Shown: positions 45,718 through 62,261 of the stretch, one piece after another
How positions within the stretch are numbered: position 1 is the stretch's first letter
How the letters are laid out: each line of letters opens with the position of its first letter
Assembly (NCBI RefSeq): GCF_003201285.1
Contig: NZ_QICS01000017.1
Span: forward strand, 1 to 62,261
Source of the DNA: Lachnotalea glycerini
GTDB lineage: Bacteria; Bacillota; Clostridia; Lachnospirales; Lachnospiraceae
Length of the DNA stretch: 62,261 nt
Reading direction: 5' to 3'
Made by a program: the position numbers and the translations under genes
The notes under the pieces: generated by a model
Databases searched by the model: none
The model's input: only the letters and a program-made list of their open reading frames with translations
Told to the model about the DNA's origin: nothing

Positions 45718-45851
45718 GGATATATAAATACGGAATTACGAATTAGTTATTTGATGCAACAAATAGATTAATCTTAATTATTCCATATTTAGTAGTTTGT
45801 TATATTAAAACTTTGAATACTTCAAAGCAATATAAAATGGGGAGGAAAATA

Positions 45852-46268
45852 ATGGAAAGAGAACAAAAACAAGAATTAGAACAAAAGAAAGAGTATCTTC
45901 AATCCTATTTACCTAAGTTTTCAGCCGCTAAACGATTAGAGCATGAAATTGAACGGTTTCAGCAGGCTAGAATAAATCCGTGCATAAAAATTGACAATAT
46001 GAATCATTTCAATGAAACGTATGATTTATCCTCTTATATGACATCTCTTGATATTCTTGTCAGCACGTTGTTTAAGGCAAGATATGATAGAATTAAGGCA
46101 TATACGGAAATCTTTAATAGAATTGAATTTATGGAGGATGAAACAGAAAAAGAGTTACTTAAACTTCGTTATTTAAAGGGGCTTAAATGGGATAAAATTT
46201 GTCTTGAATTAGGGTTTGAATGGGCACAAATCCACCGTATTCATAGAAAAGCATTGGAGCATTTCTAA
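45852..46268 (+). CDS. Phage transcriptional regulator of the ArpU/RinA-like type
   Basis: The 138-residue protein is mostly helical and ends in a sigma-region-4-like HTH (GLKWDKICLELGFEWAQIHR), as in ArpU/DUF1492 phage late regulators. I use the ATG at 45852 with GGGGAGG six bases before it; the upstream TTG start is unlikely. It is the first gene under the strong promoter and probably drives the late genes downstream. Confidence 0.7.
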   Translation: MEREQKQELEQKKEYLQSYLPKFSAAKRLEHEIERFQQARINPCIKIDNMNHFNETYDLSSYMTSLDILVSTLFKARYDRIKAYTEIFNRIEFMEDETEKELLKLRYLKGLKWDKICLELGFEWAQIHRIHRKALEHF

Positions 46269-46285
46269 TAATTGCAAGTGGATAC

Positions 46286-46375
46286 ACAATGATATATCGC
46301 ATAATGTTATATTAATGCTGTGGAAGATAGATTACAGATATCTTAAAGACCGCTGACCAAACAGCGAAAAAAACG
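46286..46375 (+). repeat. Diverged copy of the phage leader repeat
   Basis: This segment resembles the perfect repeats at 61400 and 62134. It shares ACAATGATAYATC, an AATGTTA block and a CGCTG...CAGCG hairpin followed by seven A residues (GCGAAAAAAACGT). As in those copies, it sits directly upstream of a phage structural gene. Confidence 0.6.
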
Positions 46376-46396
46376 TAATAGAAAGGATGTAGGAAA

Positions 46397-46708
46397 ATGA
46401 CAAAGAATGACTTATTGAAAATGGGCTTAAATGAGGATCAGTCAAAGAAAATTTCAGATGCTTATAAGAATGCCTTAAATGGCTATGTACCTAAGACGAG
46501 ATTAGACGAGGTTATTAATGAAAGAAATGCCCTGCGAATTTACATTGGGGAGCAAGACAAGAAACTTGTGAAGCTGGAACAGGAAATGACTGCTAATCAG
46601 GAATTGCAACAGCAAATCTGCTATTTACAAAAAGACAATTCAGTGATGAAGGACAAGCTAGAACAAGCCAAGAATTCCTTAAAGTTAGCTATTGAAATGA
46701 CATTATGA
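46397..46708 (+). CDS. Phage scaffold GP20-like protein, short
   Basis: The 103-residue protein has the GP20-type start (YVPKTRLDEVINERNALR) followed by coiled coil. Full scaffolds are longer, so this is likely a truncated relic or a short variant. It follows the leader repeat, and the holin gene is next. Confidence 0.5.
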   Translation: MTKNDLLKMGLNEDQSKKISDAYKNALNGYVPKTRLDEVINERNALRIYIGEQDKKLVKLEQEMTANQELQQQICYLQKDNSVMKDKLEQAKNSLKLAIEMTL

Positions 46709-46778
46709 AATGAAGTGGGAGAGTATAAGGTTAGCAGAGGCGATTAGTAACTGCGTACCTTAAAAAGGAGGTAGAAGA

Positions 46779-47252
46779 GTGACAAAATTAACAGAATTAC
46801 AAAATACCACCAATTTGATTTATGGAGCAGTTGCTACAATTGGTATTACACTATTTGGCAAGTATTGGTTTTTGTTTTTAGGATTTTTAGCAGCTAATGT
46901 GGTGGATTATGTTACGGGTTATATAAAGGCAAAGTATTATTTGAAAAATGAAAGTTCGAATGAGGGAGCAAAAGGTATTTTTAAAAAAGTCTGGTATTGG
47001 ATAGTAATTTGCATTGCATTTTTTATTTCGGCAGTATTTAATGATATGGGAAGCATGCTTGGTATCGATTTGAGCTTCGTTTTTTTATTTGGATATTTTA
47101 CTTTAGCAACTTACGTTATTAATGAATTAAGAAGTATATTGGAAAATATTGTACAAATGGGTGCAAATGTTCCTGGATTTTTAATTAAAGGATTAGAGAT
47201 TGTGAACAAAAAGGTTGATGATATAACTAATTCAAGTATAGAAGATAAATAG
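46779..47252 (+). CDS. Phage holin family protein
   Basis: The 157-residue protein has three to four membrane segments and the motif DYVTGYIKAKYYLKNESSNE with KGIFKKVWYW, which marks the phage_holin_4 (toxin secretion/phage lysis) family. It begins with GTG after AAAGGAGG. No endolysin follows, so the lysis module is incomplete. Confidence 0.88.
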   Translation: MTKLTELQNTTNLIYGAVATIGITLFGKYWFLFLGFLAANVVDYVTGYIKAKYYLKNESSNEGAKGIFKKVWYWIVICIAFFISAVFNDMGSMLGIDLSFVFLFGYFTLATYVINELRSILENIVQMGANVPGFLIKGLEIVNKKVDDITNSSIEDK

Positions 47253-49327: not shown

Positions 49328-49741
49328 CTATTTTTTACAAGTATCAAAAGCAGGATTAAATGCATAAAAGTTGTTAGAATCCAGGTTATCTTGAACAATA
49401 CGTAAGCCTTCCCCGAAACGTTGAAAGTGAACAACTTCTCTTGCCCGCAAGAAACGAATAGGATCACAAATTTCAGGGTCATGTATTAATCTTAAAATAT
49501 TGTCGTAGGTGGTTCTTGCTTTTTGTTCGGCTGCCATATCTTCCACTAAATCGGTTATCGGGTCGCCTTTAGACTGGAACGCACAAGCAGAAAATGGAAT
49601 TCCACCTGCTGACTGCGGGTATAATCCAAGAGTATGATCAACGTAATATTTATCAAAACCACTTGCCTTTATCTCATCAATAGTTAAATCCTTGGTAAGT
49701 TGATATACAATGGCACAAATAATTTCTAAATGACCTAGTTC
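49328..49741 (-). pseudogene. cotJC: cotJC, 3' piece (split by element 1)
   Basis: Read on the minus strand, this is the C-terminal three quarters of CotJC, a spore coat protein of the manganese catalase family. It begins at the junction with ELGHLEIICAIVYQL. YYVDHTLGLYPQSAGGIPFS, KGDPITDLVEDMAAEQKART and FLRAREVVHFQRFGEGL follow before the stop. An automatic start at 49546 would hide most of it. The frame is open and undamaged from the junction to the stop. The preceding exon lies 5.4 kb away at 55131-55265. It is called pseudogene here only because it is interrupted; I infer it may be restored by excision during sporulation. Confidence 0.9.
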
Positions 49742-49764
49742 GTTAGACCATATAGGATAGACAT
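49719..49764. other. Left junction (attachment site) of element 1
   Basis: The core TGACCTAGTTC (49731-49741) matches TGACCGAGTTC at 55141-55151 except at one base. To the left is cotJC sequence; to the right is an element arm ending at 49764 with CATATAGGATAGACAT (49749-49764). This arm is the near-perfect inverse of ATGTCTATCTTATATG at 55127-55142. Confidence 0.8.
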
Positions 49765-49771
49765 AAATGGT

Positions 49772-51367
49772 TTAAGTAATAATGTTAGTATAGATAGTAA
49801 GCTCAAATGTAGGTATATTGCCTTCTCCTCGTTTATTCTTTACATTTTTAGTATATACAACTTTTGTTATTAATTCTTTAAGTAAAGAATTTTTAGAAGC
49901 TGCATTTAGATCGTAATAAGAATCTAGTAAATTTTTACACTTTGGTATAAATACAGATACTTTTTTTTCTCTTAACTGCTCATCAGCTATCTTTTGTTCT
50001 AGACTATCAATTAATTTGATCGTTTCATTAATTCTATTTTTAATCAGTTGAGAACGCTCTGTGAATTCTTCATTCGAATAAATACCTTGTTCGAGCAAAT
50101 CATATAGTGAATTTTTCTGTTTGTTCAATTTTTGAAATTCACCTTTATGCTTATTTAGCAAATTAATCTTTACAGAAATATTATTCTCAGAAGAATCATA
50201 ATTATTAACACTTTCATTTAGCTCATAGTCTTTAACCAACTGTTGCATATGTTCAATAATAGCATCTTCAACCATAGATAAATTACTCGCTACCGTTGCA
50301 CATTCAGGATATGGACAAATAATAGTATCAGCATGAGTGTGATTATTATAAGGACGTCTTACCATATTACGGTTGCAATTACCACATACAACAAGACCAG
50401 CCAAAGGATTTGCAATTTTATTTCGTGTATTGACTGGTCTGGGCGGATTATAAGAAAGAAGATCTTGCACTTTATTAAATAAATCTTCTTCAATGATTGC
50501 TGGATGTAGACCGTCAACAATTGTACAATCTTTATTTTGGTTTCGTGGTCTGGTTTTTGTAACTACGCCATTCACTGATTGTTTCACAGTTTTTCTTGAA
50601 TTCCATCTAATCTTACCGATATAAGTAGGATTTCTTAGTATACCATTTATAACACAAGGAAGCCATTCCCTATTACCTGTTGCAGTAGGTACATTTAGTT
50701 GATTGAGCTTTCTGCAAATCAAACTAACGCCAATTCTGTTTTCACCATCTTCACCATATGCGTATAGGTTAAATATCATCTTTACTATATCAGCCTGCGA
50801 TTGAATCGGAGAAAGAGTGAATCCTTTTTCATTATCTAGTTTTACACGTTCGAAGCCGTAGGGAGCTTTATTACTTACCCACTTACCTTCATTAATAGAA
50901 GACATTCTACCTGCTTGCAATCGCCTGTTAATTGTCTTATATTCTCTTCGTGACATAAATAGTCCAAACTCGAAATATTCTTCGTCAAATTCGTTATTAG
51001 GATCATACGTTTTAGAAGGAGTTATTATCTTGGTATTAGAAAATTTAAAAGCCTGTGCCATAATTCCCTGGTCAATTGTATCACCTCTGGCAAGACGTTC
51101 TACCTCAACAACTAGAACACCGTTCCAGTCACCATTTTCAATATCTATTAATAACTGTTGCATCACTGGTCGTGAAGCTATTGTTTCACCGCTTACAACT
51201 TCTTCATACTGCTTTGTAATATTGATGTGTAACATTTTAGCAGTACTCATAAGAATTGTTCTATGCCTTGCGAGTGTTTCACCTTCTCCATGCATTTCAG
51301 CTTCGGTATCAGCTCGGCTTTTTCTAAGATACATGCAGTAATTTCCGTTTAAATTAAGTTTGCTCAT
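49772..51367 (-). CDS. Large serine recombinase of element 1 (SpoIVCA/CisA-like)
   Basis: The 531-residue protein has a serine resolvase N-terminal domain with the nucleophile S17 in YLRKSRAD, and the VEVERLARGD and GLFMSRREYKTINRRLQAGR motifs. A recombinase domain (about 190-330), a zinc ribbon (CGNCNRNMVRR with a CPYPEC partner) and a C-terminal coiled coil follow. The YLRKSRADxE form is that of clostridial sporulation recombinases acting on sigK. Its stop lies eight bases from the attP arm, with the gene pointing at the cotJC 3' piece. It looks intact. It is the likely enzyme for integrating and excising element 1. The ATG follows AAGGGTG. Confidence 0.92.
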   Translation of the reverse strand: MSKLNLNGNYCMYLRKSRADTEAEMHGEGETLARHRTILMSTAKMLHINITKQYEEVVSGETIASRPVMQQLLIDIENGDWNGVLVVEVERLARGDTIDQGIMAQAFKFSNTKIITPSKTYDPNNEFDEEYFEFGLFMSRREYKTINRRLQAGRMSSINEGKWVSNKAPYGFERVKLDNEKGFTLSPIQSQADIVKMIFNLYAYGEDGENRIGVSLICRKLNQLNVPTATGNREWLPCVINGILRNPTYIGKIRWNSRKTVKQSVNGVVTKTRPRNQNKDCTIVDGLHPAIIEEDLFNKVQDLLSYNPPRPVNTRNKIANPLAGLVVCGNCNRNMVRRPYNNHTHADTIICPYPECATVASNLSMVEDAIIEHMQQLVKDYELNESVNNYDSSENNISVKINLLNKHKGEFQKLNKQKNSLYDLLEQGIYSNEEFTERSQLIKNRINETIKLIDSLEQKIADEQLREKKVSVFIPKCKNLLDSYYDLNAASKNSLLKELITKVVYTKNVKNKRGEGNIPTFELTIYTNIIT

Positions 51368-51791
51368 TTTAACACCCTTTTTATAGAAGATAAAATAATC
51401 CTCGAAATGACGAAAGGATTACGATATAATATTTTTTAGCGTAGATTATATCGAAACCATTTGGCTTGCGAGTTACATCTGTGAATACCAGCTGAATTTC
51501 AGGGTGGTATTTGCTATATATTATAGTATGAAATATTGTACCAATATGCATAAAATTTAGTTTTAAAATATTGTTTATTGTATTAAGTTAAATTTATTAG
51601 TTTTAATAAATAATGTCGTAAAAAATATTTATGCTAAATTCTAAAAAATTAATATTAAGAATTTTTTAGGTCACATCTTTAATACCTTGAAAGTCAGAAT
51701 AATAAAATAGGCCCTGTATGTGTACAGAAAGTGACAAGTAATATAGCAACAAGTACAAACCTATGAACATATTTTGGTAAGGGGTGATTAA
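51368..51791. other. Promoter region between recombinase and small ORF
   Basis: This gap is AT-rich. It holds the promoter-like sequence listed at 51522-51549 and the inverted repeat AATACCA (51484-51490)/TGGTATT (51505-51511), a possible operator. No other gene is seen. Confidence 0.5.
51522..51549 (-). promoter_or_regulatory. Possible sporulation-type promoter of recombinase 1
   Basis: On the minus strand GCATATT (51543-51549) and CATACTATA (51522-51530) are 12 bases apart. The first matches the sigma-E -35 pattern KMATATT. The second is close to the sigma-E -10 (CATACAMT) and fits the sigma-K -10 pattern CATANNNTA. The spacer is short, and TATAAT overlaps the -10, so sigma-A use is also possible. 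Confidence 0.3.
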
Positions 51792-51935
51792 GTGGAGGAA
51801 GAAGTAAAAAAACAAAAAAAGCCAAAGGTAACAATTCGTACTGATTACGTTAAACCAGAAAGAAAACAAGAAATAATTGATAATTGTTCACGCATCATTC
51901 TTAACTATTACAGAAATAAAGATAAAACCGTGTAG
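51792..51935 (+). CDS. Small basic protein beside the recombinase
   Basis: GTG at 51792, with AAGGGGTG upstream, starts a 47-residue protein with a Lys-rich N-terminus, a VTIRTDYV strand and a helical tail (IIDNCSRIILNYYRN). It is divergent from the recombinase. Small basic proteins next to serine integrases can be recombination directionality factors, but there is no direct evidence here. Confidence 0.5.
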   Translation: MEEEVKKQKKPKVTIRTDYVKPERKQEIIDNCSRIILNYYRNKDKTV

Positions 51936-51986
51936 TAACGGTAGAAAGGACGAGCTATAGTTTTGGTGTAGGAGAGGAGGGTACTC

Positions 51987-52076
51987 TTGAATCTGGACAA
52001 TAAAACAGTGGGTGGGTTAATGGATTCATATGAAGAAAATGAACAGACGGTCACAATCAAGGACATGTATACATAA
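51987..52076 (+). CDS. Possible tiny ORF
   Basis: TTG at 51987 follows the strong purine run GGAGAGGAGGG and opens a 29-codon frame (LNLDNKTVGGLMDSYEENEQ and nine more). The spacing is reasonable. No homology is recognised; it may be the start of a truncated gene. Confidence 0.3.
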   Translation: MNLDNKTVGGLMDSYEENEQTVTIKDMYT

Positions 52077-52159
52077 ATAAGGAAGAGGGTACTTTACATA
52101 GTGCCAAGCGGTTAGCAATTCTCCATTAAAGGGTGTACCCCATTTAATATATCATTTAT

Positions 52160-52726
52160 GTGAATGACTTACTAGAAGATGATATTTATGCGAGAGGGAA
52201 GAATGCTGTTATTACAAATTCGGAGATAGATAAAACAACTAAATTCTTTATGATATCTGGTCTTGATGAAGAGGAAGCAAATATTAAAGCGATAGAATAT
52301 TGTAAAGAAAGAGAAGCATTATATCAAGCAGCCATTCAAAATGGTTACACTGTTACAGATGAAGAGGTATGGGAGTATTTGGATCAATTAAGAGAAGTAT
52401 TGGAAGGCGCAAGTAATAAAGATGATGCTATGTCCATTATAAATCAATTTGATTCTGAAGATGATTACTGGAATTATGAATTTACAGTTTATCAAAAAAA
52501 CCTACCAAAACAAAACTATGTAGCAGATTTAGAAAAAAATTATTTCAAAGATTCTAATATATCAAAGGATTCTATTAGCTCAAATAAAGGTTCCCAAAAC
52601 TTCACTGATGCGGATAGTGGGGATTTAGAATATGATTCTGTAAAAGAGGAAAAATGGCAAACATCTTTTGATGAACTTAAAAAAGATTTAGTAGCAGACG
52701 AAGATTTTGAAGTAGTAAATCAATAA
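52160..52726 (+). pseudogene. Truncated SurA-N-like foldase/lipoprotein remnant
   Basis: The reading frame encodes 188 residues. The first half (ITNSEIDKTTKFF, EYCKEREALYQAAIQNGYTV, EEVWEYLDQLREVLEG, YWNYEFTVYQKNLPKQNYV) resembles the SurA N-terminal domain of secreted foldase-like lipoproteins. No signal peptide precedes it, and an in-frame stop lies just upstream. The GTG start has no good ribosome site. It is probably the 3' part of a lipoprotein gene captured in the element. The acidic tail is unstructured. Confidence 0.5.
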
Positions 52727-52775
52727 CAATAAAATGGTAAAAAACTTTTTTGAATAATTAGAATATGATAAATAG

Positions 52776-53252
52776 AAAGGCCATTTAGATAAAGCAGCAT
52801 CAGAGACTGCATTGGGACATATTAAAATTGGAACAGGGTTGGAGATGCAGGATGGAGTTGCCAAAGTAAAAATAGTAAATGATTTAACGACTAATGATTC
52901 ATCTACAGTATTATCAGCAGCTATGGGAGTTGAGCTAAATAATAATTTTACCACACAGTTAGGTAAATTAGATCCAGAAATATCAAGTGTACGCGTAACA
53001 AAATATGGAAAAGTATGCGTTGTAGAAGGGATTTATACGATAACACAGGCTTTAGGAAATGGAGTATATGAGATTGGAACTCTTTCATTTATGCCACATC
53101 ATGGTAGTGATGTATCAATTGTTAATATATCATCACCACAAAGTGTGGCAGGTGGATGTATAGATGATTATGGATTACTTAGATATCAAGTAGCTACGAG
53201 CGTAAAGGTAGGTGATATGTTAAGAATTTTTGGTGTTTATATAGCAAAATAG
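52776..53252 (+). pseudogene. Phage tail-fibre-like gene, 5'-truncated
   Basis: The frame is open from an in-frame TAG at 52773. It encodes GHLDKAASETALGHIKIGTG, a tail-fibre repeat motif, followed by a compact beta-rich tail (EGIYTITQALGNGVYEIGTL, LLRYQVATSVKVGDML). The predicted TTG start at 52812 lacks a ribosome site, so this is the surviving C-terminal end of a longer fibre gene. The GH[LI]DKxAS...GH[IV]K module recurs in the gene at 61535. Confidence 0.6.
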
Positions 53253-53326
53253 CATAAGTAATAATGGAGCTGCGCATGAGTTAATGTAGCTAATAAAATT
53301 GATTATCTGGTTATAAAATCTAATAA

Positions 53327-53374
53327 AAAAGCATTGTTACTATCTGTAAAAATAGTTTCAATGCCTTTTTAAAC
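53327..53374 (+). terminator. Terminator after the tail-fibre remnant
   Basis: AAAAGCATTGTTACTAT (from 53327) pairs imperfectly with ATAGTTTCAATGCCTTTT (53352-53369), with T residues at the end. Confidence 0.6.
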
Positions 53375-53770
53375 TAGAATTTCAGTTATAACAATTAATG
53401 TTTATCATATATGTGCTATTTCATTTTGATTTGTACTATTAAATTCTAACACCATATCTTAATAATAAAAATATCATAATGAAATTAAAGAGCCTAACAT
53501 AGTCGTAGTAAAATTAGGGAAATTAATTAAAGTTCAAATAAGTGATAATAAAAGATAGAAATCTTTCAATTTCAATATGAAGCAAAGTGTAAGATAGAAT
53601 TACAATCAAATTAAAAAGTGATAAATTAATGGTATAGTTCAGATATAAACGATGGAGCAAAATAATATACCCCTCCAAAATAGTAACGTTTTATTTTTAC
53701 GATATCTATTTAGAGGGAGTATATCAAGATTAGTTTTATTTTGAAATTGCATAAATTAACATATACTATG
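53375..53770. other. AT-rich non-coding region of element 1
   Basis: No gene is seen on either strand. It contains an inverted repeat: 53667-53683 (ATACCCCTCCAAAATAG) pairs with 53706-53722 (CTATTTAGAGGGAGTAT) apart from two bulges and a wobble, with a 22-nt AT-rich loop. It could be a terminator for the minus-strand pair to the right or a relic of a mobile repeat. Confidence 0.5.
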
Positions 53771-54031
53771 TTAAAATAGTAAAAAATGCAGAACTTCTAA
53801 ACTGAATAAAACAGACACAAAAACAATGCAATAATTTAACCACCCTTCAAACCAGTTAATCTTTTTCAGTACCTGAGCAATTAGCATAAAAGAGGTTAAA
53901 AACAGTATAAAACAAGGATAAAAGAATACATTTTTCTCAACATAAAGAGAATATGAAAGATATTCTATACCGAGAAAATGAAAACTTATTATCAAAATTA
54001 AACCTATGAATTTGCATATTTTTTTTAGCAT
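53771..54031 (-). CDS. Small three-helix membrane protein, possible immunity protein
   Basis: The protein has about 86 residues and three hydrophobic segments (FIGLILIISFHFLGIEYL, FFYPCFILFLTSFMLIAQVL, LNYCIVFVSVLFSLEVLHFL). ATG 54031 follows TAGGAG about ten bases upstream. It lies 85 bases downstream of the secreted protein gene on the same strand. In that place a small membrane protein often gives immunity or aids export, which is inference. Confidence 0.55.
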   Translation of the reverse strand: MLKKICKFIGLILIISFHFLGIEYLSYSLYVEKNVFFYPCFILFLTSFMLIAQVLKKINWFEGWLNYCIVFVSVLFSLEVLHFLLF

Positions 54032-54116
54032 AATAAGAATACTCCTAATATTAGGCAGCAAGGTTAAATTACTTCCTAATCCTATCAGTTTTGTAATGTG
54101 TTACAGTAGTAATAAA

Positions 54117-55007
54117 TTAATAACTATATAAATAGCCGATTTTACCCTTGTGCCAATTACCATAAGTACCAGAAAATGGATTGGAAATTGTTTTTGATTT
54201 TGATACAGTAGAATAAAACTTGTTTACCATATTACTCGACCACATAAATTGTACTTTCATATACTTATTTTTATCTTTCTGCATTCCATTAAAGCAGGAA
54301 TACATGTTGGAGCGATCAATACTTTTTAGCCAATTCCAGCCAAAACCAACAGTCGCACCGACTGCGACGGATGCCACTGTTGCCTGCCATCCTGTAATAC
54401 TTAATGCTTTACAAATAAAGGCACCTAATGCAGTGCCTGCAGCTCCAGTTGCATATAATTCTTTTAAATCTTGAAAAGCATTATAGTTAGCACTTGCAGC
54501 TAATATTGAAACAGCAGTATCCCATGTAAGATAATCGACCTCCAAAGTATATGTACCAGATAGAATTTCACCTAGAGTTAGGGGAGAATGTCCGCTTGTT
54601 GTATCTCTTACCCAAGAGACACCAATATCACCAGTATAGGTAACACCATTTTTTGAAGAACTTAACGCCGGGTATGTATATCTATTCCCTGTACTAGCAT
54701 TTTTTTCATTTATTTGATTTTGGAATTTTAAACTAAAAGCAAGTCCATCAAGGGCAAGCCGAACTTCATCTTCTGTATAGTTAGATGCAGAAACTTTAAA
54801 TGCTTCTTCAAATAGATCTTGTGCATTAGATAGCGAGATTGTATCTAATTGTTCAGAGTTAAGGTCGACTAACTCTTGTACATAATGACCTTCAATTGTG
54901 TAAGGATCGATATCAGCTTTTTCAGCAGCAAATGAAACGGATGTCATACTAAAAGCTAAAGTGGTTGATAGTAAAAGAGCCATTGTTTTTTTCAATATCT
55001 TAAGCAT
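54117..55007 (-). CDS. Secreted protein of unknown function, candidate bacteriocin-like cargo
   Basis: The 296-residue protein has a clear signal peptide (KKTMALLLSTTLAFSMTSVS, cut near AFA/AEK at about residue 27-28). A helical acidic part (about 30-100), a beta region and a Gly/Ala-rich hydrophobic stretch (about 185-230, TGAAGTALGAFICKALSITG) that could enter membranes follow. The tail is basic and aromatic, ending GKIGYLYSY. It has AAGGAGG and a perfect consensus promoter (55048-55076), so strong vegetative expression is expected. A small membrane protein follows. Toxin/immunity is a hypothesis; no family is recognised. Confidence 0.6.
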   Translation of the reverse strand: MLKILKKTMALLLSTTLAFSMTSVSFAAEKADIDPYTIEGHYVQELVDLNSEQLDTISLSNAQDLFEEAFKVSASNYTEDEVRLALDGLAFSLKFQNQINEKNASTGNRYTYPALSSSKNGVTYTGDIGVSWVRDTTSGHSPLTLGEILSGTYTLEVDYLTWDTAVSILAASANYNAFQDLKELYATGAAGTALGAFICKALSITGWQATVASVAVGATVGFGWNWLKSIDRSNMYSCFNGMQKDKNKYMKVQFMWSSNMVNKFYSTVSKSKTISNPFSGTYGNWHKGKIGYLYSY

Positions 55008-55047
55008 AATTACCTCCTTAAATTAAATAGTTTGGTTACATTTGTTT

Positions 55048-55076
55048 ATTATAATAGTCGCTTTAAAACTTGTCAA
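55048..55076 (-). promoter_or_regulatory. Perfect consensus promoter of the secreted protein gene
   Basis: On the minus strand TTGACA (55071-55076), a 17-base spacer and TATAAT (55048-55053) match the sigma-A consensus exactly. The leader to the ATG is about 35 bases. Confidence 0.85.
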
Positions 55077-55126
55077 TAAAAATAGAAGAAAAATAGAAGA
55101 TATTAGACTCCATAACTTTTTAATTA

Positions 55127-55171
55127 ATGTCTATCTTATATGACCGAGTTCTTCGGTTCCTATATCTGTTA
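55127..55171. other. Right junction (attachment site) of element 1
   Basis: The element arm ATGTCTATCTTATATG (55127-55142) runs into the core TGACCGAGTTC (55141-55151). Beyond it lies cotJC coding sequence. Together with 49742-49764 it rebuilds a 48-bp dyad (23 + TC + 23) with 17 of 23 symmetric positions, the form of a serine integrase attP. Confidence 0.8.
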
Positions 55172-55265
55172 ATAATCCACTTACATTACTATATGGCATA
55201 GCATAACGTTGTGCCAGATAACGCTGAGAAGCCCCAAGTTCCCCGTCCGGTCCACCGTATTGCGA
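55131..55265 (-). pseudogene. cotJC: cotJC, middle piece (between the two elements)
   Basis: Read on the minus strand, 55265-55149 encodes SQYGGPDGELGASQRYLAQR, then YAMPYSNVSGLLTDIGTEEL. This is the conserved N-terminal part of CotJC without its first 25-30 residues. After the junction it runs into element DNA and stops within four codons (GHIR, stop). Its last codons join in frame to GHLEII of the 3' piece. Homology ends upstream at the Ser codon (TCG), where element 2 begins. The N-terminal piece is not in the window and should lie beyond the right edge together with cotJA/cotJB if the usual gene order holds. Confidence 0.9.
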
Positions 55266-55291
55266 TAAGTGATAGGGATGCTACAGGGCGC
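55256..55291. other. Left junction of element 2
   Basis: cotJC sequence (minus strand TCGCAATACGGT) ends near 55265. From 55266 the sequence GATAGGGATGCTACAGG belongs to element 2 and reaches the recombinase 2 stop at 55292. The matching right junction is outside the window, so core and arm cannot be paired. Confidence 0.65.
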
Positions 55292-56791
55292 TTATTTCAA
55301 GGGATTTTTAATATAAAAGAACATTTTAAAATCGAAATGCTCCTTATCAAAGATTATCTTACTGCATACACTTCGAATCGAAGCAGTTTTTACTTCATTA
55401 TCAAGATCAGAAATAAGTATATCATAAACGGACTCACATTTTTTTAAAATAATAGGTTTCAAATCAATTTCTTTATCAAGTTTAGAAGTATTGTATTGAG
55501 CTATTTTAGTTTCAAGTTCAGATCGTTCTTTTTGCAATCTGAGTTTATTATCTTTATATTCTTGCAAGGTATCAATACCATCCTCATAAGCAGCCTTTAT
55601 TCGTTGCTCTTTCATAGCCAGTTTGCTTAAATCAGATTTATATTTTTCCAGCTTATTTGTTTGCGAAGCGACAGCAGGAGATATGTATACAAAATAAACC
55701 TCCTGGGTATCTATCATTTTCTTTATAATTTTTAAAACGGCATCTACGGCCTTTAATTCTGAGATTGCGGAAGATTCCTTGTGTAATCCATGCGCATATT
55801 TATAGCATTGAAAATTGCCTGTGCCGCTTTTGTTACGAGAGTCTTTATAATAGACTAAGTTTGAACCACATATGTTGCATTTTAATAGACCACAAAGCCA
55901 ATGCTTTGAATAGCCAATACCTTTTCGCAGCTTTGGGGCATATTCAGCCTTAGAACGCTCTACAGCCTTGTTAAAAGTTTCGATACGGATAATTGGTTCG
56001 TGCTGTCCTTCGGCTGTAATAATTTCATTCTCGTCCTTGAGCGATCGACTACCATGTACTGACTTATTCCATCGAATTTTCCCAATGTAAAAAGGATTTT
56101 CTAATATATAATCTATGGTTCTTTTTTCAAAATTGTTGCCTCTTAATGTTTTGTATCCCTGCTCATTAAGATTTCTGGCTATTGTAGTTTTATCAAGTCC
56201 ATAATTAACATATTGTTCAAAGATGTACTGAATGATTTTAGCTTGCTCCTTATTTACAACAGGAATATCCCCTTTTATCGTATCATAACCCAAAGGAGCA
56301 ATAGCCTGATAGCCTCCTCGTAAGGCTTTTTCTGTCATTCCACGCATTACCTCGCCGCTTAAGCGAATGGAGTAGTATTCATCCATCCATTCTATGATAC
56401 GTTCGATTAAAGAACCAAATGGACCGTCTATGAGGGGTTCTGATATACTGATTACATCAATATTATTTTTCTTAAGTAAAGATTTGTATACAATACTTTC
56501 TTCCTGATTTCTGGCAAAACGGCTGTATTTCCAAACCAGTATGATATCAAATGGATGTTCTTTGGATTTAGCGATTGAAATCATTTTCTGAAACTGAGGC
56601 CTTTTGTCTGCCTTACGTCCGGAAATGCCGTTTTCAATATAAATATGCTCTGCTGGTATTATGATGCTATTTTTTTTAGCATAATCAAGCAGGAGTCTCC
56701 TTTGTGCATCAGGGGAAAGCTCTTCTTGTTTATCAGTACTTACTCGAATATAAACGGCACCAATATGCATTTCATTATCACTCTTATTCAC
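55292..56791 (-). CDS. Large serine recombinase of element 2
   Basis: The 499-residue protein has the resolvase domain with S18 in VYIRVSTDKQ, ISGRKADKRPQFQKMI and WKYSRFARNQEES. The recombinase domain, a zinc ribbon (CNICGSNLVYY with a later Cys) and a coiled coil follow. It is only distantly like recombinase 1, so the two elements were acquired separately. Its stop is within about 30 bases of the second cotJC junction and it points toward the middle piece, as recombinase 1 does for its junction. The GTG start at 56791 overlaps its only ribosome site; an in-frame ATG at 56770 may be the true start. Confidence 0.92.
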   Translation of the reverse strand: MNKSDNEMHIGAVYIRVSTDKQEELSPDAQRRLLLDYAKKNSIIIPAEHIYIENGISGRKADKRPQFQKMISIAKSKEHPFDIILVWKYSRFARNQEESIVYKSLLKKNNIDVISISEPLIDGPFGSLIERIIEWMDEYYSIRLSGEVMRGMTEKALRGGYQAIAPLGYDTIKGDIPVVNKEQAKIIQYIFEQYVNYGLDKTTIARNLNEQGYKTLRGNNFEKRTIDYILENPFYIGKIRWNKSVHGSRSLKDENEIITAEGQHEPIIRIETFNKAVERSKAEYAPKLRKGIGYSKHWLCGLLKCNICGSNLVYYKDSRNKSGTGNFQCYKYAHGLHKESSAISELKAVDAVLKIIKKMIDTQEVYFVYISPAVASQTNKLEKYKSDLSKLAMKEQRIKAAYEDGIDTLQEYKDNKLRLQKERSELETKIAQYNTSKLDKEIDLKPIILKKCESVYDILISDLDNEVKTASIRSVCSKIIFDKEHFDFKMFFYIKNPLK

Positions 56792-56967
56792 TCCTATTAA
56801 ATATATTACATAATATTCAACTTAACCATTAATGCTTCCTGTAAAACCTGTGAAAAGTTTATCCCTTTTTTTAGAGCTTCTTCATTTAACAACCCATTCC
56901 TACTGACTTCTATAAAAAACCTATCACAAAATTTCTAAATTCATATATCATCTTATCAGGAGGATAT

Positions 56968-57168
56968 ATGATAACGATTAACACATACAAAGCACATATT
57001 GATATAAATATCAGTACAAGGAAATTGGCAGAGCTGACAGGGCTGAGTAAGAGCACGATTAATAATATAGATTGTGGAAAGACATAACCAAATTTGCAGC
57101 AGCTAGAAGCTATTGCAAAAGCGTTAGATCTAAAAATGACAGAGCTGTTTGAATCGGAGTATAAATAA
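56968..57168 (+). pseudogene. XRE-type regulator with an internal stop codon
   Basis: ATG 56968 follows CAGGAGG. The frame encodes a 66-residue HTH protein (RKLAELTGLSKSTINNIDCG, then PNLQQLEAIAKALDLKMTEL). It is broken by TAA at codon 40 (57085-57087). Homologous proteins usually have Ser or a similar residue there, and TCA to TAA is a one-base change. It is probably the former repressor of element 2. Confidence 0.8.
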
Positions 57169-57455
57169 TTTATCATATCATATATTACAGACAAAATCTT
57201 TCAAAATTAAAAATGTCCAGAATTATGGACAAAAGAAACAGAGTTGCAAATACATCCAAGAAAACTGCATAGTATGAGGGTTTTGCGGCTTTATCTCAGA
57301 AAGGAAAGTAATAAAATACGAGGAGAGAAGATATCTTTTCAAAGAAATGAATATTGAAGAGCCTGATACATCATATAATTTTTGAATCAAACTAGAGAAT
57401 CAAACATTAACCAATACAAGCACACTTACATATTCTAAGAAAGGAGGGCGATGAT
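57169..57455. other. Non-coding stretch of element 2
   Basis: No gene is seen. Its only notable feature is the strong ribosome site GAAAGGAGGGCG at its right end, serving the next gene. Confidence 0.4.
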
Positions 57456-57671
57456 ATGGCAAGAGAGCTAAATCTTAAAGCAGTAATTGTAGAAAACGGA
57501 GTTGAAAGAGATTTATTTGCAATGGATGAAAAAGAAAGAAAAGAGATTGGAACACAATTGGCAATAAATTTTTTCAAATCATTGGGATGTGAAGTAAGAC
57601 GAAAACCTGTTTTAAATGAACAAGAAAAAAGTGACAAGAATGAACTTAATGAATCAAGAGATAACAAATAA
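57456..57671 (+). CDS. Small conserved-type phage/element protein
   Basis: The 71-residue protein starts MARELNLKAVIVENGVERDL. A short helix (DEKERKEIGTQLAINFFKSL) and a charged tail follow. It resembles short proteins found near serine recombinases in clostridial elements, by general pattern rather than a named family. The ribosome site AAAGGAGGGCG is strong. Confidence 0.6.
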   Translation: MARELNLKAVIVENGVERDLFAMDEKERKEIGTQLAINFFKSLGCEVRRKPVLNEQEKSDKNELNESRDNK

Positions 57672-57765
57672 AATTAGTAATTTAATGTAAATTAATATAT
57701 ATCGAAATTAAATTATGTAAATATTAAAGCCAGTGTAGTAAATATTTCTGACTTTAATAAATAAA

Positions 57766-58110
57766 TTACATTTTCATATTTTTACATTCGATAGAACATT
57801 TTTTACAGATTTCTGAGCACTTTTGACAATGTTGTTCTTTGAACATATCACACTCCTGAGCGCATTTATCACATATTATTGAACAAAGTTGACAATGCTG
57901 CATTGAAGATTGAGCGTTCATAGACATGAGAGCTGTTGACATTTGACACATCATAGCGCACTCGGTAAGTGTACTAATGCATTTTATTCGTTTATCAACA
58001 TCCGATTCGTTTAGACAAGCTTGAAAACATTCATAGCAGGCTTGAGCGCATTGATTACATGCATCAATACATGTTTGTGATTTTAAAGTAGAATTTGTTA
58101 ATATTCCCAT
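57766..58110 (-). CDS. Cys-rich four-helix-bundle protein (DUF326, copper-binding type)
   Basis: The 114-residue protein contains 19 cysteines in regular CxxxC and CxxC spacing (CIDACNQCAQACYECFQAC, CQLCSIICDKCAQEC, CQKCSEICKKCSIEC). This is the pattern of four-helix bundles that store many Cu(I) ions along the core (DUF326/Csp-like). There is no signal peptide, so it is cytosolic. The start follows TTGGAGG. It stands alone and is probably cargo. Confidence 0.85.
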   Translation of the reverse strand: MGILTNSTLKSQTCIDACNQCAQACYECFQACLNESDVDKRIKCISTLTECAMMCQMSTALMSMNAQSSMQHCQLCSIICDKCAQECDMFKEQHCQKCSEICKKCSIECKNMKM

Positions 58111-58201
58111 ATAATTACCTCCAATTATTATTATTTATAAGACTATTATGCGCAAAAGGAATAAATATATTAAAAAAATAAGCAATTAGGAGGAATGAAA
58201 T

Positions 58202-58369
58202 ATGTTAGTAGAATACAAAGAGAAAGTTGGAAAATATATCATATATCAAGACAGAGTGACTGGTGAGTTTATTGCTACGGTGGAATAACATACTATATTA
58301 GTAAATAATCCACTCAAAACGATTGAGAAAGCTAAAGATTTTATTAAGGAGTTGCAAAATCAGCATTAA
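58202..58369 (+). pseudogene. Small ORF interrupted by an in-frame TAA
   Basis: ATG 58202 follows TTAGGAGG and encodes MLVEYKEKVGKYIIYQDRVT, then GEFIATVE before TAA at 58286. The same frame continues with LVNNPLKTIEKAKDFIKELQ to a second stop at 58369. A 55-residue ancestral protein broken by one stop is likely. Confidence 0.55.
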
Positions 58370-58382
58370 GGAGGGGAAAGCG

Positions 58383-58551
58383 ATGTACAAGTTATTACTG
58401 GAAAGTAAATCAGAACACTTTGGAGCAGTAATCAATACAAGTGAAATGGGACAAGGTGTTCTAATTACAAAATTTTGCTTAGAATGTGTTAATCAGAGCC
58501 CCTAAAAATGCCGGAGAAATTATCACAGAAGGGCATGAGCTGTGTCAATGA
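58383..58551 (+). pseudogene. Small ORF with probable frameshift
   Basis: ATG 58383 follows AAGGAGGGG and encodes MYKLLLESKSEHFGAVINTS, then EMGQGVLITKFCLE. Beyond that the good reading (VLIRAPKNAGEIITEGHELC) is in another frame ending at 58551, while the first frame stops at 58503-58505. A one-base indel near 58480-58500 would explain this. Confidence 0.45.
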
Positions 58552-58617
58552 GTTTTTATTTTGCATGAAGAAAGTAAAAATAAAATTTTAAACCCGGGTA
58601 GCACATAGCGTATACTA

Positions 58618-58770
58618 TCAACCAAGCAAATAAGTTACCCATTTAGAACCTACTACAAAATTATTTAATGCCACTTGAAGTGTTTCATTAGTTGCTGCTT
58701 TTACTAGTGTTGGATTAATCGATACTAGGCATATAGCCAATGTTAATATTGCAGATATTAATTTTTTCAA
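58618..58770 (-). CDS. Short exported peptide
   Basis: TTG 58770 with AAAGGAGAAC upstream opens a 50-residue frame. It has a signal peptide (MKKLISAILTLAICLVSINP, cut near VKA/A) and a 25-residue remainder ending WVTYLLG. It may be a truncated relic of a longer secreted protein or a genuine small peptide. Confidence 0.45.
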   Translation of the reverse strand: MKKLISAILTLAICLVSINPTLVKAATNETLQVALNNFVVGSKWVTYLLG

Positions 58771-59137
58771 GATAAGTTCTCCTTTATAATTTATTAATGC
58801 TGATAGTTATAAGTTTACTATTTTATAAGAATAGTACTATCTTTAAATGTATAATAGCATTTAAAAATAAAAGTGTTAAAAAAACTAGACGAATTTAATT
58901 TTATATTCTTTAGCAAAAAGGGAAACAAAATAAAAAAATTAATATAGCAGAAAAAACATTAAGTGGAATTGAGAATCCTACAATGGATTATCTTTTAAAA
59001 GATAGTTCTATTTTTTTACAGAAAATTAAGTAAAAAAACGGTAGGCTTTTTTCTTTGTAGTTTCGATTTGTCATATTAATGGATTGTCAAATGGATGCAT
59101 TCAAAAAAGGTTGCCATTACCAAAAGAGGTGATTAAC
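58771..59137. other. Non-coding region with HTH gene remnant
   Basis: The only recognisable coding trace is at 58947-59000, where AEKTLSGIENPTMDYLLK resembles the recognition-helix region of an XRE regulator without a usable start or intact frame. Otherwise the region is AT-rich with no gene seen. Confidence 0.45.
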
Positions 59138-59189
59138 ATGCCTGATATAGAAAAAGAGCACAACCAATTACAATTCGCAAAGCGGTGCT

Positions 59190-59336
59190 CAAATTACATA
59201 TAGTCCCACGCTCCAATTTTATGGAGGTACACCTAACAAACAGGATAGTGTAGAGGCAGGTAGAACGAGTCAGGATGAATTTAATGTAAAGATGCAGCAA
59301 TATGAAAAAGATATTGGTAGGTTGTGCTTTTATTAG
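59190..59336 (+). pseudogene. Phage tape-measure protein, C-terminal remnant
   Basis: The frame encodes QITYSPTLQFYGGTPNKQDS, then VEAGRTSQDEFNVKMQQYEK before the stop. This is typical of the extreme C-terminus of phage tail tape-measure proteins. A short out-of-frame ATG reading (59138) precedes it, so the rest of the gene is deleted. Confidence 0.65.
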
Positions 59337-59412
59337 ATAAGTGAACGATAAGATCTTAATCTATTATAATAAATTTCTATTAATTAAAAATATACTTTTC
59401 TATATTTAAAAG

Positions 59413-59441
59413 TTGATAAAAATAGACAAAAATTGTATAAT
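59413..59441 (+). promoter_or_regulatory. Promoter of the secreted propeller protein
   Basis: TTGATA (59413-59418), a 17-base spacer and TATAAT (59436-59441) form a near-consensus promoter about 46 bases before the start codon. Confidence 0.65.
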
Positions 59442-59487
59442 ATATTAGTTACCATAAATAAAACAAATTTAAAGGGGAGAGATTAAA

Positions 59488-60801
59488 ATGAACAAAAAAG
59501 TAATTCGTATTTTTATTGCATTATGTTTAGTATTCGTGATGACAAGTTCTACTGTATTTGCAACAACTAAAAAAAATAGTGTCTTAAAAGAATCTTTTGA
59601 TACTGAAATACTCAAATCAAATTCAACAATACTAAATAAAGAAACTACTGTTGAATTGGAAAAAGAACCAGCAGAATTAAAGGAAGAAATTATTGCAGAT
59701 ACAAAAGAAAGTAATGTTCCAAATACTAAAGCTTATAATCAAAATACAGTTCAACCAACTAATATCATATGGTCACATTTATGGGGAAGTGAAGATATTA
59801 ATATTTTAAATAGTCAAAGTACAGCAGATGGAGGATATATCATTGCCTCTACAACAACAACCAATAACTGTATTTGGCTGACTAAAATTGATTCTAATGG
59901 AAATATTGAATGGACTTACGTCTATGGCGAAGGGTATAATTGGGAGGTATATGCGGTAAAACAAACAAGTGATAGTGGCTACGTTTTAACAGGCAAAGTA
60001 AATGACGATGTTTTTTTAATTAAAATGGATGCTAATGGAAATGTTCAATGGATTAATCTTTATGGTGGAGATGAAGAAGATTACGGAAATGATGTAGTAC
60101 AAACTATTGATGGTGGATACTTTATTGTTGGAACTACTAAATCTTTTGGTAGTGAAAATTATGAAGCTTATTTAATAAAAACAAATGCTAAAGGTGAGGG
60201 TGAATGGGGAGGTATATTACCTAGTGAGAATAGTTTTGAGTTTGGTAAACAAGCTTTAATTGAGCCTTCTACTGGGAATATAATTGTTAGAACTTATGGT
60301 ATGAAAAATATAAGTTCTATAAATACTGTATTAAAGATTAGTAATACAGGTACTATTATACAGTCAAGTTATATTGATAAATTAAGTTCCGTTGCCAACG
60401 ATATGATATTAACTGCGGATGAAGAATTGATTCTAACTGGTTATGCAAATAGTGATATAACAATACTTAAGTTAGACTCTTCTTTAAATATTGATTGTCA
60501 AAAACAATATCATGTTAATGGATATGATTCCTTACAGTATGGAAAAAGTTTATATCAAACAGATGATGGAGGATTTGCTATTACTGGTATAGTTAATAAC
60601 TATATTTCCCAGTTAACTTCTGATATTTGCTTAATTAAAGTTGATTCTTCATTTGAAGTTGAATGGATTCAAACATATTCATTTAGTGATATTGATGGAG
60701 CAAATTTTATCAACCAGACAAGTGATTCTGGATATGTTATTTCAGGAGCTATGTACAATCGTGGTGAAAATTATAAATATTTTATATTTAAATTAAAATA
60801 A
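59488..60801 (+). CDS. Secreted beta-propeller-like repeat protein
   Basis: The 437-residue protein has a signal peptide (IRIFIALCLVFVMTSSTVFA, cut after about residue 26). An acidic linker follows, then about six repeats of DGGYIIxGxT...xWLTKIDxNGNIEWxxxYG type (around residues 110-435). Such repeats form beta-propeller blades and occur in secreted clostridial proteins of unknown role. No wall anchor is seen. It begins after AAAGGGGAG and has its own promoter. It is probably accessory cargo of element 2. Confidence 0.75.
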   Translation: MNKKVIRIFIALCLVFVMTSSTVFATTKKNSVLKESFDTEILKSNSTILNKETTVELEKEPAELKEEIIADTKESNVPNTKAYNQNTVQPTNIIWSHLWGSEDINILNSQSTADGGYIIASTTTTNNCIWLTKIDSNGNIEWTYVYGEGYNWEVYAVKQTSDSGYVLTGKVNDDVFLIKMDANGNVQWINLYGGDEEDYGNDVVQTIDGGYFIVGTTKSFGSENYEAYLIKTNAKGEGEWGGILPSENSFEFGKQALIEPSTGNIIVRTYGMKNISSINTVLKISNTGTIIQSSYIDKLSSVANDMILTADEELILTGYANSDITILKLDSSLNIDCQKQYHVNGYDSLQYGKSLYQTDDGGFAITGIVNNYISQLTSDICLIKVDSSFEVEWIQTYSFSDIDGANFINQTSDSGYVISGAMYNRGENYKYFIFKLK

Positions 60802-60959
60802 GTTATTTTATTTAATTATATTATTAATGCTTAAATGCAAATACATAAAGTTTAAAATTTGATGGATTTGTATGAAAAAAGGCAAACGGTAATATTTGCG
60901 TTAGATTAAGAAAATAAATATATAAATTTAAGAAAGTATCCTTCGGGGTACTTTTTTGA
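60802..60959 (+). other. Short intergenic stretch
   Basis: No gene is seen. AAAGTATCC/GGGTACTTTTTTG near 60931-60957 forms a terminator-like hairpin (AAGTATCC, TTCG, GGGTACTT) for the propeller gene. Confidence 0.55.
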
Positions 60960-61287
60960 GTTTGCACGCCATGGGCGCGCTCTAACGGGTGGAAGTCCCG
61001 AGCTGCAGAAGTTGGGGAGTAAGTAATAGCTACAAGATAGAGAAATTGAATCAACTCATTAGGGATTGGATAAATTATTGAAAATCGGTAGCATGAAAAC
61101 CTTATGTGCAAGGATGGACTCTAACATTCGCTATAGATTACGTATGTGTATCTGGAAGCATTGGAAAACACTCGCCTACTTAAGCCTTAGGGCTTATTTT
61201 TTTCATGGCCATGCAAAAAAGTTTAGTGAAATAGGTTATTCACATGAAATAATCTCTATTCAGAAAGCTGGATTAAAAGGAGGATGA
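60960..61287 (+). mobile_element. Group II intron remnant with reverse transcriptase C-terminus
   Basis: The segment 60970-61002 (GGGCGCGCTCTAACGGGTGG and on) resembles the 5' part of a bacterial group II intron. From 61040 the plus strand encodes LNQLIRDWINY and then, after a one-base deletion at about 61080, KIGSMKT...RYRLRMCIWKHWK. This is the C-terminal maturase region of an intron-encoded reverse transcriptase. More than 80 percent of the protein gene is missing, so it is dead. Confidence 0.6.
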
Positions 61288-61399
61288 CTATATAATTGTT
61301 TGAACTAAGATATGGAGTGAGTGTTTTGTGTATGGTTTTTAATAAGAATCCTGTAATTAAAAGCAATACCTAGTAACATTAATAAATAAATGTCTGTTT

Positions 61400-61524
61400 A
61401 AATAAACATGATAAACAATGATACATCATGCAATGTTACAATGTGAGTACAAATAAATAGCTGACTGAACAGCGAAAAAAATGTTATTTGTAATTTGAAA
61501 CTAAAACTTACTTAATTATAAGGG
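61400..61524 (+). repeat. 125-bp direct repeat, copy 1
   Basis: Positions 61400-61524 are identical to 62134-62258. The unit contains ACAATGATACATC, GCAATGTTAC, a GCTG...CAGC hairpin (61460-61473) followed by seven A residues, and ends in a ribosome-site-like AAGGGG for the gene at 61535. It acts as a shared leader. Confidence 0.95.
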
Positions 61525-61534
61525 GAAAAATTAT

Positions 61535-62080
61535 ATGGAAACAACAAATAATGGAGTGCAAAAAGCACAATTTCAAGAAATAAATATAGCATCATTTAAT
61601 AATAATGCGGATGTTCTGAACGGACATATCGACAAAATCGCTAGTTCAGATATTTGGGGACATGTTAAACTTAGTGATGAATATATTACTAGTTCGGGAA
61701 AGGCGGAGAACGGTATAGGGGCAAGTTCAAAAGCTATTACTGATGCTTATAATAAATTAAATGATAAATTTAAATGGAATGTTGTTGCAACTGATTATGG
61801 TTCCACACCGATAGAAGTAGATTTAGATGATTACAGTGAAATTCACATATTCGTTGTTAATAGAGCAGGCGATGTATATAGAAGTGCAACCTTTGAAATT
61901 ACAAGAGATGATATAAATTCAACAGATAGGATATTCTATGATGGAGCCATGTTTTCTCAAACTTCATATGTAGGTGTGTCAATATCGGTATCAACATCTA
62001 AAGTAACTCTTTTGAATTTTGTAATTAGCGGCACAAATTACAAAGATGGTGATACACAGACTGTGATTCGTGCGAGATAA
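61535..62080 (+). CDS. Phage tail-fibre or receptor-binding-like protein
   Basis: The 181-residue protein has an N-terminal module with NGHIDKIASSDIWGHVKLSD, like the tail-fibre piece at 52776. A beta-rich domain (about 85-181, YSEIHIFVVNRAGDVYRSAT, VSISVSTSKVTLLNFVISGT) follows that looks like a fibre tip. The ATG follows AAGGGG at the end of the direct repeat. A second repeat copy follows its stop, suggesting a duplicated fibre gene beyond the edge. Confidence 0.65.
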   Translation: METTNNGVQKAQFQEINIASFNNNADVLNGHIDKIASSDIWGHVKLSDEYITSSGKAENGIGASSKAITDAYNKLNDKFKWNVVATDYGSTPIEVDLDDYSEIHIFVVNRAGDVYRSATFEITRDDINSTDRIFYDGAMFSQTSYVGVSISVSTSKVTLLNFVISGTNYKDGDTQTVIRAR

Positions 62081-62133
62081 TTTAAAATTCGACTAACTTT
62101 AATTTAGTAACATCTATTAACAAACGGCTATTC

Positions 62134-62258
62134 AAATAAACATGATAAACAATGATACATCATGCAATGTTACAATGTGAGTACAAATAAATAGCTGACT
62201 GAACAGCGAAAAAAATGTTATTTGTAATTTGAAACTAAAACTTACTTAATTATAAGGG
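62134..62258 (+). repeat. 125-bp direct repeat, copy 2
   Basis: This is an identical copy of 61400-61524, apart from one fewer G just after it. It ends three bases before the window edge and should precede a second gene. Confidence 0.95.
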
Positions 62259-62261
62259 AAA

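Follow-up and report, generated by a model that had tools for sequence, protein, structure and literature searches.

In the excerpts of the literature consulted here, split sporulation genes are mostly described singly, each with a single insertion site. The interrupted genes named in the relevant passages of two papers are sigK, spoVFB (spoIVFB in one text), spoVR, spsM, gerE, kamA, and yabG, and cotJC is absent from those passages (PMC6957869, PMC10747680); according to the first of these texts, nearly all known intervening elements of sporulation genes sit in mother-cell genes (PMC6957869). The subject of this work is cotJC of Lachnotalea glycerini, a member of the Lachnospiraceae, which is interrupted by two serine-integrase elements, here called A and B. 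The window analysed is the 62,261-nucleotide stretch C17:1-62261 (contig C17, NZ_QICS01000017.1) of a 4.86 Mb genome in 48 contigs with a contamination value of 1.85. Searches of the open PMC literature, which leaves aside preprints and the bulk of subscription articles, turned up no description of a split cotJC. The cotJC elements are widespread, stackable sporulation gene-intervening elements, and cotJC is new as their target.

In Bacillus subtilis, the sporulation gene spsM carries SPbeta, a serine-integrase element with the integrase SprA and the factor SprB, and the flanks of the element rejoin in frame (PMC4191935, PMC6957869). The available text indicates that a single factor gene responds there both to stress and to sporulation (PMC6957869). 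The skin element in sigK of B. subtilis and Clostridioides difficile is likewise a serine recombinase element in a mother-cell gene, with inverted repeats around the crossover (PMC5025042, in part). Other gene-intervening elements with serine recombinases are gin in gerE and yin in yabG, which are reported for one gene and one site each in the sections consulted; gin is without phage genes (PMC5595907, PMC10747680), and the part of the yin study considered here mentions that no other yabG insertions were found (PMC10747680). In cyanobacteria, the interruption elements of nifD, fdxN, and hupL are excised in the terminal heterocyst, which restores the developmental gene; several can share one gene, with four in Rivularia nifD, and element variants differ by position (PMC4874684, in part). 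The C. difficile prophage phi027 was considered and set aside as a precedent, as the cotJC homologue only adjoins it, downstream of attR, in the text available.

In L. glycerini, cotJC is split twice, the order being exon 3, element A, exon 2, element B, and then exon 1 on another contig, C1. The features of the locus are given below; S1 and S2b are two of the four insertion sites described further on, and attP and attB are the phage and bacterial attachment (att) sites.

49328 to 49741, minus strand: cotJC exon 3 (codon 65 to the stop); PF05067 E 1.1e-23, in-frame join, crossover GA at 49740-49741.
49716 to 49765, minus strand: element A attachment site at exon 3 (S2b); attP symmetry 17/22.
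49742 to 55149, no strand: element A between crossover dinucleotides; in-frame exons on either side, attP symmetry.
49772 to 51367, minus strand: large serine recombinase of element A, 531 aa; Pfam, PHROG 95 integrase, SPbeta SprA/YokA E 6.8e-56, S2b clade.
55126 to 55175, minus strand: element A attachment site at exon 2 (S2b); crossover GA at 55150-55151, attP symmetry.
55150 to 55253, minus strand: cotJC exon 2 (codons 31 to 65); PF05067 E 2.0e-10, in-frame join.
55228 to 55277, minus strand: element B attachment site at exon 2 (S1); attP symmetry 19/22 across C17 and C1, the other half being at the C1 end.
55254 to 62261, no strand: element B, window part; it continues to the C17 end (64161), then a gap, then the last ~235 bp of C1.
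55292 to 56791, minus strand: large serine recombinase of element B, 499 aa; Pfam, PHROG 95 integrase, S1 clade 100/99.

Exon 1 lies at the end of contig C1, behind cotJA-cotJB, from C1:1040855, where it was located by a CotJB family search; inspection by eye did not reveal it in the window above 56.8 kb. The last 340 bp of C1 past the CotJB match consist of exon 1, which is cut in codon 31, about 60 bp of unique sequence, and a terminal repeat that is common to the ends of contigs C3 and C9 and by appearance resembles an insertion sequence. Exons 1 and 2 have a 15-nt core in common. When the three exons are joined in silico, a 201-aa CotJC without a stop is obtained, the A junction falling in codon Glu65 and the B junction in codon Gly31.

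A first-pass annotation made from the letters alone had placed the CotJC C-terminal part at 49328-49741 on the minus strand, and it is present there and stop-free. The preceding part had been put at 55131-55265; a stop-free piece exists on the minus strand, but its real bounds are 55150-55253, it is an internal exon, and position 55265 lies 12 bp inside element B. The in-frame rejoining of these two pieces was correctly read, and the 5.4 kb element said to begin with a large serine recombinase measures 5410 bp from crossover to crossover, with the recombinase 30 bp from exon 3. As regards a redundant second intact cotJC, for which a check had been suggested, a PF05067 profile search of the genome gives no further copy beyond the split gene. 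Uninterrupted orthologues, also proposed for comparison, occur in both other genomes of the genus that were compared; against them cotJC shows constraint, but synonymous divergence (dS) is about 2 or saturated, so that the insertions are undatable here.

Both recombinases contain the Resolvase and Recombinase domains over the Pfam cut-off, a zinc ribbon just under the curated cut-off, and a catalytic motif at the start, and each adjoins an att site of its own element. The closest solved relative of recombinase A is SprA of SPbeta (YokA, 9dxh), matched over residues 9-524 with E 6.8e-56; recombinase B matches solved structures with its N-domain only (best 3g13). In the reconstructed attP, complementary arm positions amount to 17/22 for A and 19/22 for B, whose halves come from two contigs, around a non-palindromic central dinucleotide common to attP and attB, GA for A and GG for B. 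Symmetry of at least 17 occurs in 5 of 75653 sampled centres, the attP scores having been optimised over a few codon shifts at each join, unlike those of the sampled centres. The symmetric attP of both elements exceeds chance.

By their position inside a sporulation gene, with flanks that rejoin in frame in silico, A and B resemble skin, SPbeta, and gin-type elements. The likeness to SPbeta extends to recombinase A, which is of the SprA family, and not to recombinase B. The differences from SPbeta are the target, cotJC instead of spsM, the length of 5.4 kb of element A, the presence of two elements in one gene, an excision that here is proposed, and the lack of a recognisable SprB-like factor in element A, in which one 47-aa open reading frame (ORF) was tried and rejected (best PDB match E 0.68, a ribosomal protein). 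Unlike the regulator sigK, cotJC encodes a coat enzyme, it is hit at several sites by several elements, and a directionality factor was identified for neither A nor B; the best sigma-K model match in the L. glycerini genome is unsplit (294.4 against a curated cut-off of 298.65 bits). The smallest cotJC elements seem, as gin, to be without phage genes, and cotJC is split in many genera, in contrast to the single gene and site of gin and yin. The heterocyst elements, which serve nitrogen fixation in cyanobacteria, work alike without the cotJC elements being members of that group. The skin-like element with intact exons proposed in the first pass remains the best fit, amended in that there are two elements, exon 1 is on another contig, and the target is recurrent at four sites rather than a private event.

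We estimate at about 0.8 the probability that cotJC is split by independent serine-integrase elements A (codon 65) and B (codon 31), and that both are excised in the sporulating mother cell with rejoining of the exons. Each element would have inserted itself into a conserved stretch of cotJC through attP x attB recombination. The split gene would persist in vegetative cells and in the forespore, and the elements would be inherited vertically through the spore. In the terminally differentiating mother cell, integrases with directionality factors would excise A and B, both presumed to be still active in L. glycerini, and the exons would rejoin to encode the 201-aa CotJC, a manganese (Mn) catalase-like coat protein. 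The assignment of excision to the mother cell is made by analogy, because cotJC belongs to the sigma-E regulon of B. subtilis in the text consulted (PMC3416734) and because of the known systems described above.

The arrangement recurs in related genomes. PF05067 has a match in 184 of 299 genomes of the family, that of L. glycerini included. Fifty-seven genomes with a weak or fragmentary best match and lacking a full-length one were chosen by eye, and the loci of 47 were examined together with this genome, giving 48; G013, G018, G020, G042, G059, G128, G173, G174, G209, and G229 were left out and are not counted as split. cotJC is split in at least 45 of the 184 cotJC-bearing genomes, a lower bound since genomes with an intact copy beside a split one were not screened, and 45 of the 48 examined resolve to four sites:

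Site S1: codon Gly31 (31), 16 joins, centre GG.
Site S2a: codon Gly62 (62), 13 joins (G062 counted twice), centre GG.
Site S2b: codon Glu65 (65), 13 joins, centre GA.
Site S3: codon Glu136 (136), 9 joins, centre GA.

Joins were codon-anchored, and all 51 resolved ones are free of stops up to 15 residues from the cut, so that the decay of exons in relatives, raised in the first pass as a sign to the contrary, was not encountered. Joining yields a full-length ORF in 43 of 45 genomes (in G100 the contig edge removes the start, and the G167 product has 185 aa), and E35, E65, H68, E136, and H169, putative Mn ligands by comparison with other Mn catalases, are intact in 43/43. Two insertions are present in five of the 45 (G000, G061, G113, G195, G260). 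As a control for assembly breaks, the longer sporulation protein SpoIIIAE was counted in the same 299 genomes; 193 have it, and 4 of these show multiple matches.

In the closed chromosome of Blautia parvula NBRC 113351 (NZ_CP084061.1), analysed without 46 bases at the origin, every one of the four sites is occupied, and one cotJC is in five pieces over 131 kb:

94493 to 87649: S1 element, 6.8 kb, attP 20/22.
87555 to 67142: S2a element, 20.4 kb, attP 13/22 (weak).
67142-67132: micro-exon, 11 bp.
Across the origin to about 6233557: S2b element, 80.6 kb, attP 18/22.
6233345 to 6210519: S3 element, 22.8 kb, attP 18/22.

The joined gene is an intact 210-aa ORF, and B. parvula also has a further intact PF05067 gene. 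Symmetry alone does not identify the S2a partner, the correct place not being among the best four; its placement rests on the S2b partner (18/22) and on the codons of the micro-exon.

Integrase lineage and insertion site go together. Recombinase frames near junctions numbered 45, and the tree was built from the 44 that reach 400 aa (42 beside a junction and two extra ones of G243). The S1 integrases (14) form a single clade (100/99) and the S3 integrases (6) another (100/100), while the S2 integrases form two groups of 13 and 9, serving S2b in 13/13 and S2a in 8/9 (G124 is unresolved). The clade matches the insertion site in 41/41. Among 27 intact PF05067-family genes, 20-nt windows more conserved than the site account for 2.2% (S1), 2.1% (S2a), 7.2% (S2b), and 1.9% (S3), and all four sites fall in well conserved cotJC DNA.

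Selection on the gene while it is split is observed in two species of one genus, G014 and G581, which have the same S3 element. Over 9.6 and 8.5 kb around the element ends, which cover the exons, the flanking chromosome, and 2-3 kb of the element with its integrase, the two align at 96.2 and 96.3%. The joined cotJC differs by 21 synonymous and 0 nonsynonymous changes, an all-synonymous outcome with a chance of ~2.5e-14 under neutrality, and the integrases, open in both, differ by 23 synonymous and 11 nonsynonymous codons over 500. Barring two separate entries of the element, cotJC in this pair has therefore been subject to purifying selection in its interrupted state, and such selection implies that the joined gene must be made. 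Mother-cell excision is the probable means by which the split gene is made whole. G311 and G469 were rejected as a further pair, being saturated (117 synonymous, 31 nonsynonymous).

At the level of the order, PF05067 has a match in 234 of 393 genomes, and 46 with fragmentary matches were re-searched, the loci examined among them being G311, G469, G581, and G319. Judging from profile positions, several genomes outside the family seem split; cotJC is there in four pieces in G311 and G469, with joined ORFs of 200 and 199 aa, and G319 was joined at S2b with an attP symmetry of 9/22 only. In G062 (L093, L124), two C-terminal exons lie ~3.1 kb apart after a single N-terminal exon, as if the element brought its own 3' end. 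In G371, G449, and G478, C-terminal pieces begin near profile position 114, with several per genome in G371 and G449, and these are possibly a fifth site or an exon array.

Relatives of the S1 integrases were sought by an alignment scan of genome contigs, and the best 80 of 573 were analysed. A cotJC piece lies within 400 bp in 44 of these 80. Among the other 36, 26 loci (L166-L236, e.g., L188:4442-4858, L190:11561-11959, L206) have S1-sister recombinases at the cut of another gene, no more than 450 bp from one of its pieces; this gene matches 'spore cortex-lytic enzyme pre-pro-form' (9h68), and we take it to be SleC-like. The remaining 10 lie near neither gene, five of them with a cotJC piece 0.9-1.7 kb off. 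In a quick tree of 71 labelled rows, the target switches twice, against a shuffled mean of 21. To judge from these loci, the SleC-like cortex-lytic gene is another spore gene that is split repeatedly.

The IMG/VR relatives considered were the best 80 of 409 for recombinase A and the best 80 of 185 for recombinase B. Among the former, 17 lie beside a cotJC piece and 20 have a symmetric GA centre (at least 14/22) by the integrase, the half core fitting cotJC codons in 9 of the 20; among the latter, 14 lie beside a cotJC piece, 15 have a symmetric centre, and 2 show a half-core fit, and some of the low symmetry scores in both sets will be chance. Among four phage records, a human gut contig and a Paenibacillus larvae phage each contain a site with a core that fits cotJC, a Dorea phage has a symmetric GA site without a full fit, and one is without a site. 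The phage with the nearest recombinase B relative in the phage collection (H1, L240) gave no symmetric site of at least 14 near the integrase.

Minimal cotJC elements of 2.4-3.9 kb (G257, G260, G285, G032) comprise a recombinase and few other genes, and no phage structural genes were recognised in them by eye. A basic 42-67-aa ORF, common to 8/9 S3 genomes and just upstream of the integrase or overlapping its frame in the six measured, is a directionality-factor candidate. Inside the 3.9 kb element of G032, a frame at L090:962-1744 resembles by eye a Spo0A-type response regulator. Small proteins that by eye are HicA/HicB-like occur in the cotJC elements of L080, L103, L145, L150, L153, and L123, and could be stabilising toxin-antitoxin pairs. 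The following features accompany the elements of L. glycerini itself:

54117 to 55007, minus strand: 296-aa ORF with a signal-peptide-like start, element A cargo; no Pfam or PHROG match.
57766 to 58110: Cys-rich DUF326 protein, element B cargo; weak match to a copper-storage family.
61371 to 61527 and 62105 to 62261: 157-nt direct repeat of element B, 94%; another copy is on C17 past the window.
45813 to 47252: phage-type genes (transcription regulator, scaffold-like protein, holin), outside elements A and B.

As to the setting amid decayed phage genes suggested in the first pass, the phage-like genes at about 45.8-47.3 kb belong to neither element.

Several points weigh against excision in the mother cell. 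Excision is proposed from the DNA, and neither element A nor element B yielded an identifiable directionality factor. In a scan of the 300 bp upstream of the 44 of 45 integrase frames, the sigma-E (sigE) motif occurs 3 times against a mean of 1.1 in shuffled sequence (maximum 5), a loose sigE motif 5 times against 0.97 (maximum 5), the sigma-K motif twice against 0.9 (maximum 5), a bare -10 motif 12 times against 5.75 (maximum 12; antisense 6), and a second -10 motif 7 times against 3.8 (antisense 8), which is weak support at best for sporulation control. Since the counts stay close to those of shuffled sequence or do not exceed their maximum, no significance is attached to a sigE-like site that lies 182 bp upstream of recombinase A. 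Element B is interrupted near the C1 edge by the repeat common to other contig ends, and its frame for a helix-turn-helix (HTH)-type regulator at 56969-57168 has an in-frame stop as read by eye; from these two features, element B may be decaying. The joins of G039, G124, and G156 did not resolve, and the integrases of G156 (278 aa) and G124 (409 aa) are truncated. By profile positions, split and intact species occur together within genera g29, g33, g124, g263, g271, and g282, and this mixed status indicates that some insertions are recent and that intact exons alone are weak evidence. The selection test comes from one pair of relatives with an S3 element, not from L. glycerini.

Some of these points would also suit a restoration of cotJC by ordinary stress induction of a phage in part of the population, outside any mother-cell programme. 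The integrases are of a phage integrase family with relatives in free phage genomes, and the sporulation-promoter motifs are not clearly enriched. Against it speak the minimal elements, whose few genes include no phage structural gene recognised by eye, and the available description of SPbeta shows that stress and sporulation routes are not exclusive (PMC6957869). We consider this explanation unlikely. Plain disruption would mean that temperate phages or phage remnants insert into cotJC as their attB and leave carriers without an active gene, the exons being intact only because the insertions are recent. It would agree with the variation of insertion status within genera, with the relatives of both integrases in viral contigs, some with symmetric attP, with the further intact PF05067 gene of B. 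parvula, and with the truncated integrases beside two split genes. Against it stand the 51 joins free of stops, the ligands kept in 43/43, the pair that shares the element by descent, whose cotJC shows 21 synonymous and 0 nonsynonymous changes, and the lack of another PF05067 gene in L. glycerini, the surveyed genomes having been chosen for lacking a full-length match. It is regarded as quite unlikely. That the three pieces arise from mis-assembly or a strain mixture, as 48 contigs, a contamination of 1.85, and an exon 1 on another contig might suggest, is very improbable given that the element B attP halves from two contigs are 19/22 complementary, that the same architecture recurs in other genomes including a closed chromosome, and that SpoIIIAE gives more than one match in only 4/193 genomes.

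Beyond the excision of A and B in the mother cell, a broader view of cotJC can be put forward tentatively, at somewhat less than an even chance. cotJC may be a multi-slot docking gene, in which four integrase lineages are each specialised on one conserved segment around putative Mn-ligand codons, with sister lineages of one of them on the SleC-like gene. Up to four stacked insertions would be tolerated since the mother cell would excise each, and production of the coat enzyme would require every integrase and every directionality factor to fire, which would amount to an AND gate at the DNA level.

For the family, which is common in the gut, these findings mean that one coat gene is split in at least 45/184 cotJC-bearing genomes, at four sites and by site-matched integrase lineages, and that automatic gene calling may overlook or shorten a common spore protein. 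Many natural sets of integrase, attB, and attP are supplied together with candidate directionality factors, and developmental DNA excision becomes testable in named strains of Blautia and Mobilitalea.

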